Of a stretch of DNA of 64,000 nt, positions 6,125 to 20,724 are shown piece after piece; positions within the stretch are counted from its first letter, which is position 1, and the number at the start of each line of letters is the position of its first letter. Source of the stretch: Verrucomicrobiia bacterium (GTDB lineage Bacteria; Verrucomicrobiota; Verrucomicrobiia; Limisphaerales; Pedosphaeraceae); the NCBI GenBank assembly GCA_036268055.1, contig DATAUW010000001.1, positions 62,001-126,000 of the forward strand, written 5' to 3'. The notes under the pieces were generated by a model. The model was not told where the DNA came from and made no database searches. It was given only the letters and a program-made list of their open reading frames with translations. The translations under genes and the position numbers were made by a program.

Positions 6125-6502
6125 GCAAAATCTTTAAAAAGAGTCATGGAAATTACGGCATCCATCCCCATGCGTCAAAGACTTTAAAATCACACTCAAC
6201 GCACTGAACCAACGCCATCTCCTTTACTGCCATTTTGGCTACGCCGCATCATAGCCCAACGCGCCGGCTATTGCAAATGCAGCCATGAACCGGCTAACCG
6301 CAGGGGCGCATCTCAGTTTCTTGCAACCCGGAGGGTTGCCGGACCTTAGCCAAGGATAACATCCCCGAAACGGCATCCAAACAGAATATCCGTCCCGGCT
6401 GGGACGGCGGATCTCATCACAAATAGAATTTAAATGCGTTGAGGCCATGATTTTCCCGCGCCCAACCCGGCACCGGCCTCCGCCAATAATTTTTTCCTCC
6501 CA

Positions 6503-6572: not shown

Positions 6573-6847
6573 TTTTTGGCTCGCTTAACGTCGTTTGAAG
6601 AGCCGAGCCAAACCCGGCCGTTGGCGTTTTTTATCCACTTGCGGATTTGAACCCGCTGCCATCGTCCAACTCGCCTTAGAGCAAACCATTACCTCCATTT
6701 CAAAGAACCATCCCTACCATACCGCATCCCCAAGATACAGTCCACCCTTCCATAGGATACAAAAATAGAAATAACCTCCCCTCATCCACAAACTAAATCC
6801 CTCCACCAACGCCTCCGCCAACCGTATGCCCCCATTAAGGGGAGGGC

Positions 6848-6864
6848 GAGCGTACTCGCGAGCC
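6848..6864. repeat. 17-bp interspersed word, copy 1
   Basis: GAGCGTACTCGCGAGCC is identical to 22037-22053. It contains the palindrome CTCGCGAG and lies in gene-free sequence in both places, each time preceded by a G/A-rich stretch. Confidence 0.75.
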
Positions 6865-7094
6865 GTAAAATGATCATCCACTCACGCCCCGCCCAGATTA
6901 TCCACACCCTCCACCGCTTCTCATTAACCTCCAGATTCATCTAGGGGGTCGCCGCGTCCACCCTTCCAACCACACCATCCCGAGCGCAGCGAGGCCGCAC
7001 CGTTCCCTGGAACCATCCTCCACGAACTTCACTTCAGGTTATCGCCCGATTATTGCGCCCCACCATTCCCCACTCGCACAGGCTTTCCCCCAGC

Positions 7095-9069: not shown

Positions 9070-10236
9070 CTATCGGCTGAACGATTTCGCAAAATCTTCC
9101 GTGGAAACTTTCACCACTTTCTTTTTCGCCGTGGAACCTGCGATCAACTGCTTCAATTTTTTCTCGTAAGCCTTGCTGTCCATCGGCAATTCCACTGTCT
9201 TGCCCGTCAGCGACGAATATAACATCACATTCGCCAGTTCGACAGAATGAATTCCATCCGGCCCGGGCGCAATCAGCGGCGCGCCGTCCAGAATCGCATC
9301 CACAAAATTCTGCATCAGGGCCGCATGCGGCGCGGTGGCATTCTCAATCGGAATTTCCACATTCCACACTTCCGGTTTCAGAAATCCCACCTTGGACGAT
9401 TTGCAAAACTCATCCATCGGAACTTCGTTGCGCGTGAAAAACAATTTGTCCTTTTCCAAAACAATCTTGCCGCGCGTGCCGGCGATTTCAAACCGGTTCG
9501 TTCCCGGCGCTTCCCCGGTGGACGTGATAAAAACGCCCGTCGCCCCGTTCGGATATTCAAAATACGCGGTGACATTGTCTTCAACCTCGATCTTGTGAAA
9601 CCGCCCAAGCTGGCAAAACCCGCGCACCCGCGCCGGCATGCCACAAAGCCATTGCAGCACGTCGAGATTATGCAGGCATTGATTCAGCAGCACGCCCCCG
9701 CCCTCGCCCTTCCACGTCGCGCGCCACTCGCTGCTCGAATAATAGGCATCCGTGCGATACCAATCAGTGATGATCCAATTCACCCGCGTGATTTCCCCCA
9801 ACTCACCGCTCTCGATTAACCGGCGAATCTTCGCGTAACGCGATTCCACGCGCAGTTGAAACATTCCCCCGAAAACCAGCCCCTTATTTTTCTGCTTTTG
9901 CTTTTGATACGTGGCGATCAACTTTTCCGCATCCGCCTTGTGCGCTGAAATCGGTTTTTCCACCATCGCATGCACGCCGTTTTCGAGCGCGCAAATCCCC
10001 AGGCTGGTATGCTGATAATGCGGCGTGGCGATGAGCACCGCATCCACCTCCCCCGAACGAATCAGTTCCTCACCATCAGCAAAAATTTTCAACGGCGCGT
10101 ACTTCTCAAGCTTCTCCGGCGACGTCGAACAAACCGCCACCAGTTCGCACCGGCCGACTTTTCCCGCGCGCAAATAATCGGCGTGATGCCTGCCAATATT
10201 TCCCATGCCGATAATCCCAAGCCGCACTGTGTTCAT
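9070..10236 (-). CDS. Gfo/Idh/MocA family oxidoreductase
   Basis: A 388-residue NAD(P)-dependent dehydrogenase. The Rossmann motif GIIGMGNIGRHHADYL is at residues 8-23, and the strand-helix ATPHYQH lies near residue 70. The family signature EKPISAH is near residue 94. The second half is the beta-sheet domain that binds the sugar. Family members oxidise or reduce sugars, inositols or related polyols in the cytoplasm. There is no Tat signal, unlike many verrucomicrobial members. It is the first gene of a short minus-strand run with the lipoprotein and the TIM-barrel gene. The substrate cannot be assigned. Confidence 0.93.
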   Translation of the reverse strand: MNTVRLGIIGMGNIGRHHADYLRAGKVGRCELVAVCSTSPEKLEKYAPLKIFADGEELIRSGEVDAVLIATPHYQHTSLGICALENGVHAMVEKPISAHKADAEKLIATYQKQKQKNKGLVFGGMFQLRVESRYAKIRRLIESGELGEITRVNWIITDWYRTDAYYSSSEWRATWKGEGGGVLLNQCLHNLDVLQWLCGMPARVRGFCQLGRFHKIEVEDNVTAYFEYPNGATGVFITSTGEAPGTNRFEIAGTRGKIVLEKDKLFFTRNEVPMDEFCKSSKVGFLKPEVWNVEIPIENATAPHAALMQNFVDAILDGAPLIAPGPDGIHSVELANVMLYSSLTGKTVELPMDSKAYEKKLKQLIAGSTAKKKVVKVSTEDFAKSFSR

Positions 10237-10352
10237 GCAAAAAGATTACCGGCCTCACCAAATAATTCAAACCCGCAATTCCATCGTATCGCAACCTCAG
10301 TCACCTCGCACACCATCCGCGTCGTAACGCGACTTGCCGCTCCGCCGCCGAA

Positions 10353-10674
10353 GTCCCGCAGGGACGACAGATCTTAGCCCAGCAATTTATTGCTGGGTTG
10401 AACTCCCCTTCAATCCAAGTCCCGGAGGGACGAAAGAAATTCCCGTATGGAACCAACGCTAACCTACTCGTCCAACACTTCTCATTAACCCCCGACTTCA
10501 GTGGGGGGAAAATTCAATCGCCTGCGTCAGAAACGGTTTCCAACCGTTTCTCAAATTTAAATTTTGCCACCATGAAGACAAACGTAGGCGCATTCTTCAA
10601 CCCCGTACACCTCAACGGGACATCGCCCTCGCGATGTCCCTGGCCCAGCAATGGCAGTGTCACTGCCTCGCTGG
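10353..10674. repeat. Mosaic of seven perfect or near-perfect hairpins
   Basis: The 456 gene-free bases between the oxidoreductase and the secreted protein at 10693 contain a chain of unrelated palindromes. They are 10353-10365 (GTCCC/GGGAC), 10378-10397 (CCCAGCAA/TTGCTGGG), 10419-10431 (GTCCC/GGGAC again), 10489-10508 (CCCCC/GGGGG), 10530-10550 (GAAACGGTT/AACCGTTTC), 10617-10640 (GGGACATCGC/GCGATGTCCC) and 10645-10674 (GGCAGTG/CACTGCC inside CCAGC/GCTGG). None has a T-tract typical of a terminator. Confidence 0.85.
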
Positions 10675-10692
10675 AGAACCTCCTCCTTTTCT

Positions 10693-11775
10693 TCAGTAGA
10701 GCAGCACCGTCGTCTTGCCGCGGAACTCCTCCAGGTTCAGCTTGCCCTTGCCGAAAGCATCAATGTCCGATTTCTTCGCGCGAATCGTCAGCACCGGCCC
10801 GCCCGACGAATGCCCGGAACTCGACGAACCCACCCACGCCGCCCCCGGCGGAACCGGTCCGCCATACCCGCCACCACTGACAGTCACAGTGCCAGTACTG
10901 CTGGTGCTCATGCCTCCACCTCCCACGCGTCCACCCTTTTGATCTTTATGAAATGCGAAGTGCGGAGCATTCCCCCCACTTTCCGTGGAGACAACCAGCG
11001 TCACCGTCTCATCCGATTTCAAGTTGCGGATATTGCTCGCGTTTTTTAAAGCCGACGTAAGCGCCTTTTTAAGATTCTCCACCTGCGCCGGATCAAATTC
11101 CGGCTTCGCATCTCCGGCGTTGGCCGCATCGGAAGGATCGCCGTAAAGTTCATGCTTGGTTTCGTCCCACGGCGAATTGGCGTGCTCCTTCGTCTCCGCG
11201 TCGTCCACTTTTTTCACTGGACCCGCCAGCGGAAAATTTACATTCAACATAAAAATCGCTCCGTAACCCTGGATCAACAGATTCTTTGGACTGTCGGAAT
11301 TGCCGAAATTAAATATCTTGATGCCCATCGCCTGATGATCCTCATCTTCGTCCGCGTGCGCCAACGCCTTCTCCAAAATGCGGCCCATGATGCTCAAATC
11401 CTCCTGCCCCGCTTCGAGAACTTTCGGGTCCGCGTCGCTGGAACAAATGACCAATCCCCGTTCCGCACGATTTTCGCCTTTGGAAGCATACTGTAACCTG
11501 TTCAGCAGGGTTGCGGTGCGAAATTGTTCCTCCCTCGTCGCGTTCGCGTCCTGCGACGCCTGGGCCATAACCATGCGCTGTTGTTTTGCGGCAGCGCGAA
11601 TCTGGTCCGCCGCCGCCGCTTCCGCCTGAGATGCCGTGGCATAATCCGTCCCCGCGAGGCCGGACGCGCTGCCTTCCGACGCGTCATGATTATAGGCCGC
11701 AGCCGGCTCGGCATTAACCGTAAGTGCCAGCGACAACGCCACCGCCACCACGCTTGAGTATAATTTAATTCTCAT
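10693..11775 (-). CDS. Secreted protein with Gly/Ser-rich tail, third gene of the sigma/anti-sigma operon
   Basis: A 360-residue protein with a Sec signal peptide (MRIKLYSSVVAVALSLALTV, cut near NAEPAAA). An Ala/Gln-rich helical stretch covers about residues 40-90. A central mixed region contains LIQGYGAIFMLNVNFPLAGP, and a segment around 225-275 reads FDPAQVENLKKALTSALKNA. Residues about 280-325 are rich in Gly and Ser (GGRVGGGGMSTSS, VSGGGYGGP), and the end reads DIDAFGKGKLNLEEF. It follows the anti-sigma gene by 20 bases and is probably co-transcribed with it, which suggests an envelope target of that regulator. I do not recognise the family. Confidence 0.83.
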   Translation of the reverse strand: MRIKLYSSVVAVALSLALTVNAEPAAAYNHDASEGSASGLAGTDYATASQAEAAAADQIRAAAKQQRMVMAQASQDANATREEQFRTATLLNRLQYASKGENRAERGLVICSSDADPKVLEAGQEDLSIMGRILEKALAHADEDEDHQAMGIKIFNFGNSDSPKNLLIQGYGAIFMLNVNFPLAGPVKKVDDAETKEHANSPWDETKHELYGDPSDAANAGDAKPEFDPAQVENLKKALTSALKNASNIRNLKSDETVTLVVSTESGGNAPHFAFHKDQKGGRVGGGGMSTSSTGTVTVSGGGYGGPVPPGAAWVGSSSSGHSSGGPVLTIRAKKSDIDAFGKGKLNLEEFRGKTTVLLY

Positions 11776-13048: not shown

Positions 13049-13106
13049 CAGGGTAGATTTAGTTCGGAAAAATCTTCACTTTTCTTGGATACCGCTCCCT
13101 TGGTAA

Positions 13107-13291
13107 GGCGGCGCGGCAGCGCCGCCGTCCCTTTTCTCCAAAAATCAATCCTCCACCATCCGGGAACCTCAATGAGGTTCAGGCAACAAAGCCCAATGGT
13201 TGCGCCGTCCAACGGCGCTACCTTGGGTCAACCACCAAAAATCCCCCACCATATAGAGCGAAGCGAGTCGCGCCCAAGGCGCGTTACCGCC
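13107..13291. repeat. Chain of four hairpins including one recurrent element
   Basis: Between the sigma factor and the DUF554 gene lie perfect hairpins at 13107-13126 (GGCGGCGC/GCGCCGCC), 13164-13180 (GAACCTC/GAGGTTC), 13198-13222 (GCGCCGT/ACGGCGC) and 13254-13291. The last one is 38 bases long and has a close relative at 20858-20896. Its stem is CGCGCC/GGCGCG here and CTCGCC/GGCGAG there, a compensated change. Confidence 0.8.
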
Positions 13292-20538: not shown

Positions 20539-20569
20539 GACGGACCGCGGGTCTCTGACCCGCAGCAAG
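20539..20569 (+). repeat. REP-like hairpin family A, copy 1
   Basis: Stem GCGGGTC/GACCCGC with a 3-base loop, preceded by CGGACC and followed by AGCAA. It forms an inverted pair with the copy at 20694-20724. Confidence 0.82.
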
Positions 20570-20693
20570 GTACACCAGGTCAAGCCGCGTGCAGATCAGC
20601 CCATTGTACGACCCGTCTGGGTCATCCATCTCAAAAGCAGGACCGGTGATATTCAAAAGACTTGCACAATCGGCAGCGGCATTCTCGCGTGGA

Positions 20694-20724
20694 TTGCTGC
20701 GGGTCACAGACCCGCGGTCCGCTG
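20694..20724 (-). repeat. REP-like hairpin family A, copy 2 (inverted)
   Basis: The reverse complement of copy 1 apart from the loop base. The two copies bound a 186-base segment that contains no gene, like the paired REP units (BIMEs) of other bacteria. Confidence 0.82.

Follow-up and report, generated by a model that had tools for sequence, protein, structure and literature searches.

The hairpin chain at positions 10353 to 10674 of the window (the whole 64,000-nucleotide stretch analyzed here) is built mainly from a repeated three-hairpin unit, T1, and its usual companion modules. From the sequence comparisons below, we consider it probable (roughly 0.8) that T1 is a transposon end of the Y1/HUH type, present here as a solo copy, that the full form consists of T1, a tnpA gene of subclass 1.2, and an inverted T1 (T1'), and that chains of this kind would arise by transposition in trans at replication forks. 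The architecture of the unit, its occurrence as inverted copies on both sides of tnpA in several phyla, its tnpA-less dimers and solo copies, the co-variation of its stems, and its skew-following orientation were all observed.

Composition of the hairpin chain

The gap from 10237 to 10692 contained eight perfect stems of 5 to 10 pairs each, spread over 10353 to 10667 (10353-10365, 10378-10397, 10398-10413, 10419-10431, 10489-10507, 10529-10551, 10617-10640, and 10653-10667). Dinucleotide-preserving shuffles gave a mean of 2.2 stems, and none of 200 reached eight; three stems had at least 8 pairs, against a shuffle mean of 0.005, with none of 200 shuffles reaching three. The hairpins reported in the initial annotation are real and nonrandom. 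The left neighbor of the gap is a Gfo/Idh-type oxidoreductase gene (9073-10236, minus strand) and the right neighbor is a gene (10693-11775, minus strand) whose protein has no Pfam or NCBIfam match. As annotated initially, no convincing gene was found within the gap: with gene calls made by longest-ORF heuristics, the plus-strand reading frames at 9970-10377 and 10398-10880 overlapped the minus-strand genes and looked spurious.

The first four hairpins (10351-10440) form one tripartite unit, T1, and are not separate words (Table 1). T1 consists of H1, a TTAGCCCAGC-hairpin (H2) that starts with TAGCC, a variable linker of about 19 nt, and H3, which is a direct copy of the H1 hairpin on the inner side; each such end measures about 85 to 90 bp. 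The initial annotation had counted at least six hairpin families, and this was too many, as the hairpins at 10353 and 10419 belong to one family and four of the eight lie in one unit. It had also expected the hairpins to recur in the genome. This was true of the AGTCCCGNNGGGACG hairpin of H1 and H3, with 141 copies in the 5.1-Mb genome and none of the reversed control, and of the T1 core, for which a strict pattern found 86 copies (47 plus and 39 minus; reversed control, 0), but not of H7, which had a single copy in the 1.14 Mb of own sequence examined. Many H1/H3 copies were paired exactly 66 bp apart genome-wide, and 130 distinct matches in 75 loci were classed as 71 first copies, 53 second copies, and 6 others, a rough sorting with a slightly looser loop pattern in which a few second copies were called first. 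The strict core pattern was present in 7 of 57 relatives. Tandem copies of the T1 composite with a period of about 345 bp occurred at the end of contig C27. T1 copies lay no more than a few hundred bases from contig ends in C1, C2, C3, C4, C8, C24, C25, C27, and C30, among others, and T1 composites therefore probably break the assembly.

Table 1. Hairpin features and modules in the window
Feature	Position	Strand	Details
T3 (P4), CAACCCGGAGGGTTG - TTAGCC.. - CCGTCCCGGCTGGGACGG	6319-6407	+	P4 match 6319-6343; central hairpin decayed
D - A4 - H5 chain without T1	6840-6995	+	
T1, tripartite unit with GAAAGAAAT tail	10351-10440	+	nhmmer E 9e-26; about 86 genome copies
Parts of T1			H1 10352-10366; H2 10376-10399; weak linker hairpin 10398-10413; H3 10418-10432
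Acido-Lenti-1 (RF01687), H2'-H1', outer 46 nt of T1	10352-10397	-	cmscan 55.3 bits, E 1.2e-10
Partial Acido-Lenti-1 match, H3	10419-10441	-	cmscan 19 bits, below gathering
A4, CTTCTCATTAACCCCC hairpin	10458-10510	+	H4 10489-10507; nhmmer E 1e-15; usual 3' companion of T1
H6, AGAAACGGTTtccAACCGTTTCT	10524-10559	+	nhmmer E 2.6e-10; after A4 at other loci
H7 hairpin, GGGACATCGC..GCGATGTCCC	10614-10642	+	Separate from T1
H8, two-step hairpin	10645-10674	-	Just 3' of gene 10693-11775
H0 hairpin, second chain	13101-13130	+	nhmmer E 2.8e-4
T2, second tripartite family	13165-13258	+	nhmmer E 6.6e-15
P1 inverted pair, REPIN-like	20540-20721		P1+ 20540-20568; P1- 20694-20721

In sum, the chain reads T1-A4-H6, then H7, and then the hairpin 3' of the next gene. 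Four same-family genomes (G001, G002, G005, and G007) hold both neighbor genes. The syntenic gap is about 137 bp in G002 and about 140 bp in G005, and both contain a single strong hairpin, with a run of T after it on the gene strand, and lack the T1 composite; H8 occupies the position of this single, terminator-like 3' hairpin. The gaps in G001 and G007 were longer and had other content, with an H7-like hairpin in G001. No occupied and empty pair at base resolution was found among the relatives, a set without a genome of the same genus, because the flanks of the same-family syntenic gaps were too diverged.

Other chains and the order of modules

The similar chain that had been described at 13107-13291 was recovered and consists of H0 and T2. 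The one around 6323-6407, composed of T3/P4, was also present but weaker, with 2 stems of 7 (0 of 200 shuffles reached 2 stems of 7, and 18 of 200 reached two of 5). By eye, T1, T2, and T3 have a common layout of a hairpin, a (TT)AGCC hairpin, a linker, and a hairpin, the layout of T3 being taken from fuller copies elsewhere. Because other regions had been selected for carrying the hairpin, module densities came solely from an unbiased 464-kb sample (the window plus 400 kb), in which profile searches, with models trained iteratively on the same sequence, counted 16 T1, 15 H0, 9 A4, 7 H5, 6 H6, 7 T2, 22 P1, 7 P4, 6 B, 7 D, 5 P5, and 1 H7; the L2 module had no match in this sample. An exact-word repeat search of the 464 kb found two families only, the method being too strict. 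The P1 module (GGACCGCGGGTCtatGACCCGCAGCAA) formed REPIN-like inverted pairs about 85 or 142 bp apart.

In the sample plus further loci partly chosen for T1, neighboring pairs of different modules had the same orientation in 195 of 202 cases, and the common pairs had a fixed order. The initial annotation had named conservation of the whole chain as one unit as the result that would speak against it, and, given this co-orientation and order, six of the eight hairpins do largely show it. The alternative that it had favored, in which separate small palindromes, each mobile by itself, were inserted side by side, has some points to recommend it, since H7 and H8 stand apart from T1, the modules T1, T2, T3, D, and P1 do adjoin one another, and the common strand bias of most modules alone would give co-orientation. 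We nevertheless regard it as unlikely, at perhaps one chance in a handful, because H1, H2, and H3 recur jointly with the 66-bp spacing and because the order is fixed too: H0 preceded T1 in 49 cases versus 3, T1 preceded A4 in 37 versus 1, A4 preceded H5 in 26 versus 1, and A4 preceded H6 in 9 versus 0, in loci partly chosen for T1. Rarer modules were less strict (D before T1 in 4 cases and T1 before D in 4). Fixed spacing, order, and orientation rule out independent single palindromes for H1 to H3 and largely do so for A4 and H6. Thus, of the "small mobile palindromic words" originally proposed, the repeated and mobile-looking character stands, but an independent random pile-up does not, as four hairpins are one unit. 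Different modules (T1, T2, T3, D, and P1) do stack in one gap, and accretion may therefore occur at the level of modules.

T1 contains the Acido-Lenti-1 structure

The outer part of T1 scored above the gathering threshold (37) of RF01687, Acido-Lenti-1, on the minus strand. Rfam models this family as a 46-nt small RNA, whereas here it corresponds to the outer two of three hairpins at a probable transposon end and lies in inverted copies around tnpA. PMC2864571 introduced the family, and Table 1 of that paper, in the available text, lists it as a probable RNA that is probably not cis-regulatory. A 2026 paper describes its function as little known and suggests, in the text available, that it may regulate protease genes of Tannerella (PMC13298647). 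No published link between Acido-Lenti-1 and transposition was found in a literature search of the main text of open-licence papers. Of the 58 genomes in the relatives set, 45 had the family, with at least 86 matches in the own genome and in G043; it was also present in 126 of 381 genomes of the phylum, and there was no match in 14 named control genomes.

The stems of the unit co-varied strongly. All 416 pair cells in 32 distinct 46-mers of the own genome were Watson-Crick, a count for which the search pattern itself restricted H1 and the first two pairs of H2. In 63 foreign sequences (H1 loosely constrained, the inner six H2 pairs free, and a few rows misaligned), 92 percent of 819 pair cells were Watson-Crick, with only 5 G.T and 8 A.C cells, and 162 cells were changed on both sides, compared with 16 to 18 when the partners were slid by one. 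Structured RNAs usually show more G.U pairs. Such strong co-variation with so little wobble would fit a DNA inverted repeat better than an RNA.

A tnpA gene between inverted T1 copies

The own genome has five Y1 genes (L001 to L005). L001, L004, L003, and L002 scored 86, 57, 57, and 64 bits against the NCBIfam IS200/IS605 cutoff of 55, and all four failed the REP model (19 to 40 bits; cutoff, 80). The own TnpA proteins match PF01797 and NF033573 and are related by sequence to the solved ISHp608 transposase (solved relatives, 2a6m and 2xm3). The L001 tnpA gene has T1 on one side and an inverted T1' on the other, the two having nearly identical linkers, and the L004 gene sits between direct copies of T2. 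L001 is the only one of the four IS200-type genes with T1 ends; the flanks of L002 and L003 differ. GGCGCTCCTACGGAGCTT repeats occur on the flanks of L002 (G000:C6:45826-49170), and the L003 gene (G000:C11:233706-237050) begins just after A4- and H6-like hairpins. Among 12 loci with L001-like TnpA that were examined by eye, an ORF was recognized in seven, and five of these (L189, which is the own locus, L191, L192, L193, and L200) had inverted hairpins of the same kind on both sides. All 13 aligned TnpA proteins carried the signature Y---Q--HH, which is that of TnpA_Y1 subclass 1.2 (Quentin et al. 2018; PMC6006769, available text), and they had a common TFQEEY..FL.KH tail, a candidate for the specific C-terminal domain of that subclass.

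The fifth gene, L005 (G000:C19:52439-54784), passed the REP model (82.4 bits versus 80), and its flanks carry other palindromes. The initial annotation had anticipated a REP-associated tyrosine transposase (RAYT), and one does exist, inside alaS, but the T1-flanked transposase is of the IS200 type and not a RAYT. A classical RAYT/REPIN (BIME) system, for which this gene and the REPIN-like inverted family P1 could be cited, is accordingly very improbable as an explanation of the chain: the TnpA between T1 copies scores above the IS200 cutoff and below the REP one, T1 is made of three hairpins of which the outer two are direct copies, inspection by eye showed no GTAG foot, and the RAYT sits in alaS with other palindromes. 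Family models and flanks rule out a RAYT as the driver of T1.

The RAYT-type Y1 domain of L005 lies in frame inside alaS, and this alaS was the sole one found in the own genome. Relatives G021, G009, and G017 carry such an insert at this site (about 263 in Pfam coordinates), and G012 carries one at about 375. The inserts of the relatives (L355, L356, L357, and L359) were all in open frames, with REP_Tyr_transpos scores of 71, 74, 58, and 68 bits, below the cutoff of 80. These domains may mark repeated in-frame invasion of an essential gene by a transposase, or they may be an insertion domain.

Inverted Acido-Lenti-1 copies flank tnpA in several phyla

A search of GTDB genomes returned 553 TnpA relatives, and the best 80 of 553 were used and scanned with all of Rfam. 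These 80 came mostly from Verrucomicrobiota, Planctomycetota, and Acidobacteriota, with Calditrichaceae, Bacteroidota, Armatimonadetes, and, by title, proteobacterial records as well. RF01687 scored above gathering in 30 of the best 80 loci, and in all 30 a copy lay within 300 bp of tnpA. The nearest upstream match was on the minus strand in 20 of 22 cases (30 to 123 bp from tnpA), and the nearest downstream match was on the plus strand in 22 of 23 (49 to 103 bp). In Terriglobus albidus, RF01687 matches flank tnpA on both sides. The only other Rfam matches in the 80 loci were 2 tRNAs.

When the upstream flank was aligned with the reverse complement of the downstream flank, the real pair outscored every one of 100 shuffles in 64 of 78 testable loci, including 30 of 30 with an Rfam match and 34 of 48 without one; the sample was the closest 80 and the seed alignment included T1-flanked members, so this fraction gives no prevalence for subclass 1.2. 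A direct-repeat control also beat the shuffles in 37 of 78 loci, because palindromes score as direct repeats too. Eight alignments were inspected (the first eight without an Rfam match), and all showed the layout of T1 in full, in part, or in closely related form; the TAGCC hairpin was seen in 8 of 8 and the linker and inner hairpin as well in 7 of 8.

The mirrored placement of RF01687 around tnpA in many bacteria makes it most likely that RF01687 forms the end of a Y1/HUH transposon and is not an RNA. Acido-Lenti-1 could still be a genuine noncoding RNA, in the form of RNA genes or cis elements, with an incidental link to the transposase: its structure is conserved with co-variation, its published rating is that of a probable RNA (PMC2864571, available text), and the polarity of the model strand around tnpA is consistent. 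We consider this improbable, at less than one chance in ten, given the inverted flanking of tnpA at fixed distances, the near absence of G.T pairs on either strand, the lineage-specific bursts, and an orientation that tracks regional skew and not genes (see below).

Dimers and solo copies without tnpA

Five near-complete genomes of the class had 65, 40, 47, 39, and 24 RF01687 matches, many of them minus-then-plus pairs about 130 to 215 bp apart. All 20 inspected pairs (16 from G233 and 4 from G329, chosen as pairs and judged by eye) had the structure T1, spacer, and mirrored T1'. In G043, 19 of 20 loci were T1-T1' dimers without tnpA (mirror layout by eye). The own genome had mostly solo T1s.

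Orientation of T1 follows GC skew in the own genome

With the 800 bp beside the element excluded, 61 of 68 T1 clusters lay on whichever strand was richer in C over the surrounding 20 kb. Most other modules behaved similarly (D, 24/24; H5, 26/26; A4, 37/38; H0, 28/32; T2, 11/12; H6, 11/13; B, 7/7; P4, 7/9), while P5 was on the C-rich strand in 2 of 15 cases, its direction label being arbitrary, and P1 in 22 of 33. Within a 20-kb region, plus- and minus-strand genes had matching skews (Spearman 0.81), and the skew is thus regional. T1 agreed with intergenic skew in 65 of 71 cases versus 48 of 71 for the net gene strand (P = 0.004), and, where the two conflicted, T1 sided with the skew in 18 of 21. 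The genes flanking T1 were ++ in 10 cases, -- in 17, divergent in 18, and convergent in 19. These even gene contexts and the better agreement with skew than with gene strand exclude a gene-directed orientation, as of a terminator or mRNA element. Asymmetric dimers of G043 showed no strand bias (12 of 20, at sites selected as clearly asymmetric, with the arm of higher Rfam score taken as the strong one), a failed replicate, and the bias therefore rests on one genome; the two arms of G043 dimers differ little, and most of the skew in that genome is weak. Along contigs C13 and C18, the sign of the skew flips several times within 300 to 360 kb, and the orientation of T1 switches with it. These flips would be odd for two simple replichores; inversions, several origins, or misjoins are possible.

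The G-rich strand is generally the leading strand. If this applies here, the Acido-Lenti-1 strand of T1 would be the lagging-strand template, as expected for IS200/IS605-like elements. Orientation that follows replication is a trait of that group in the available text of a review (PMC5371812), and the solo T1s agreed with regional skew to the extent given above, whereas the G043 dimers did not. The strand bias could come from strand-biased deletion of dimers, with solos as the leftover halves, rather than from insertion. A function selected for its strand bias, with T1 kept as an oriented chromosomal signal of the type of polar segregation or recombination motifs, would account for so strong a bias, but T1 is patchy across 57 relatives, is attached to a transposase, and forms near-symmetric dimers in other genomes, which makes such a role highly doubtful.

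Discussion

HUH/Y1 elements, PATEs (PMC3119063), and REPINs/BIMEs and TIRtrons (PMC3733652) are already known. In typical IS200/IS605 elements, each end has a single imperfect hairpin, and the two ends do not form inverted repeats. T1 resembles these elements in its HUH/Y1 transposase and subterminal hairpins, but its ends are tripartite and mutually inverted instead of single and noninverted. PATEs of Haloquadratum are similar in being transposase-free and IS605-derived, with near-terminal palindromes and terminal-only forms, and one type carries a direct 22-bp copy; however, they are archaeal, and the available text of PMC3119063 does not describe for them an inverted tnpA element with the same ends or a central TAGCC hairpin. 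REP/BIME/REPIN sequences with RAYTs, and TIRtrons, share intergenic palindrome mosaics, a repeat-flanked Y1 gene, and dimers (PMC3733652, available text), whereas T1 goes with another transposase class and has hairpin triplets and skew-oriented solos. A REP sequence flanks its cognate RAYT, but the TnpA flanked by T1 is not of the REP type. By eye, no unpaired GTAG/GTGG (or CGTC) foot was found in T1, where a CGTC string lay largely within the stem.

The TnpA proteins studied here resemble subclass 1.2 in the Y---Q--HH signature, the relationship to IS200 transposases, and the few copies per genome (PMC6006769). According to the available text of that paper, members of the subclass are near IS200/IS605 transposases, lack IS properties, generally lack typical terminal structures, and occur mostly in Cyanobacteria and Bacteroidetes. 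Here, they come from Verrucomicrobiota, Planctomycetota, Acidobacteriota, and others, with T1-like ends, and the inverted-repeat flanks at most of the testable loci depart from the general lack of terminal structures. In the main text of open-licence papers, we found no report of T1-like ends for subclass 1.2.

Comparison of the sequences suggests a mechanism in which TnpA would cut T1, act in trans, and be coupled to the replication fork. TnpA would fold one T1 strand exposed on the lagging-strand template and would cut at the H1 and H3 hairpins, which face the same way, as do the left and right ends of IS200/IS605 elements; the excised T1 would then be inserted into single strands exposed at forks. 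The modules beside T1 (H0, A4, and H5/H6) may travel and duplicate in tandem with it, which would produce ordered mosaic chains, and the chain described here would have been inserted beside the 3' hairpin of the neighboring gene. The broader reading, to which we give slightly better than even odds, is that T1 represents a widespread third HUH/Y1 architecture, in which a subclass 1.2 TnpA goes with three-hairpin terminal inverted repeats, that Acido-Lenti-1 is its terminus and not an RNA, and that mobile single-stranded half-elements of about 90 nt, loaded at forks in one orientation, build the ordered and directional mosaics between genes.

The finding joins two orphans, an Rfam "RNA" without a known role and a transposase subclass described without IS ends. 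If it is correct, the annotation of RF01687 should change from noncoding RNA to mobile DNA, and subclass 1.2 would gain a testable substrate. The strand bias would then be a genome-scale record, in an uncultured group, of what appears to be fork-coupled single-strand transposition.
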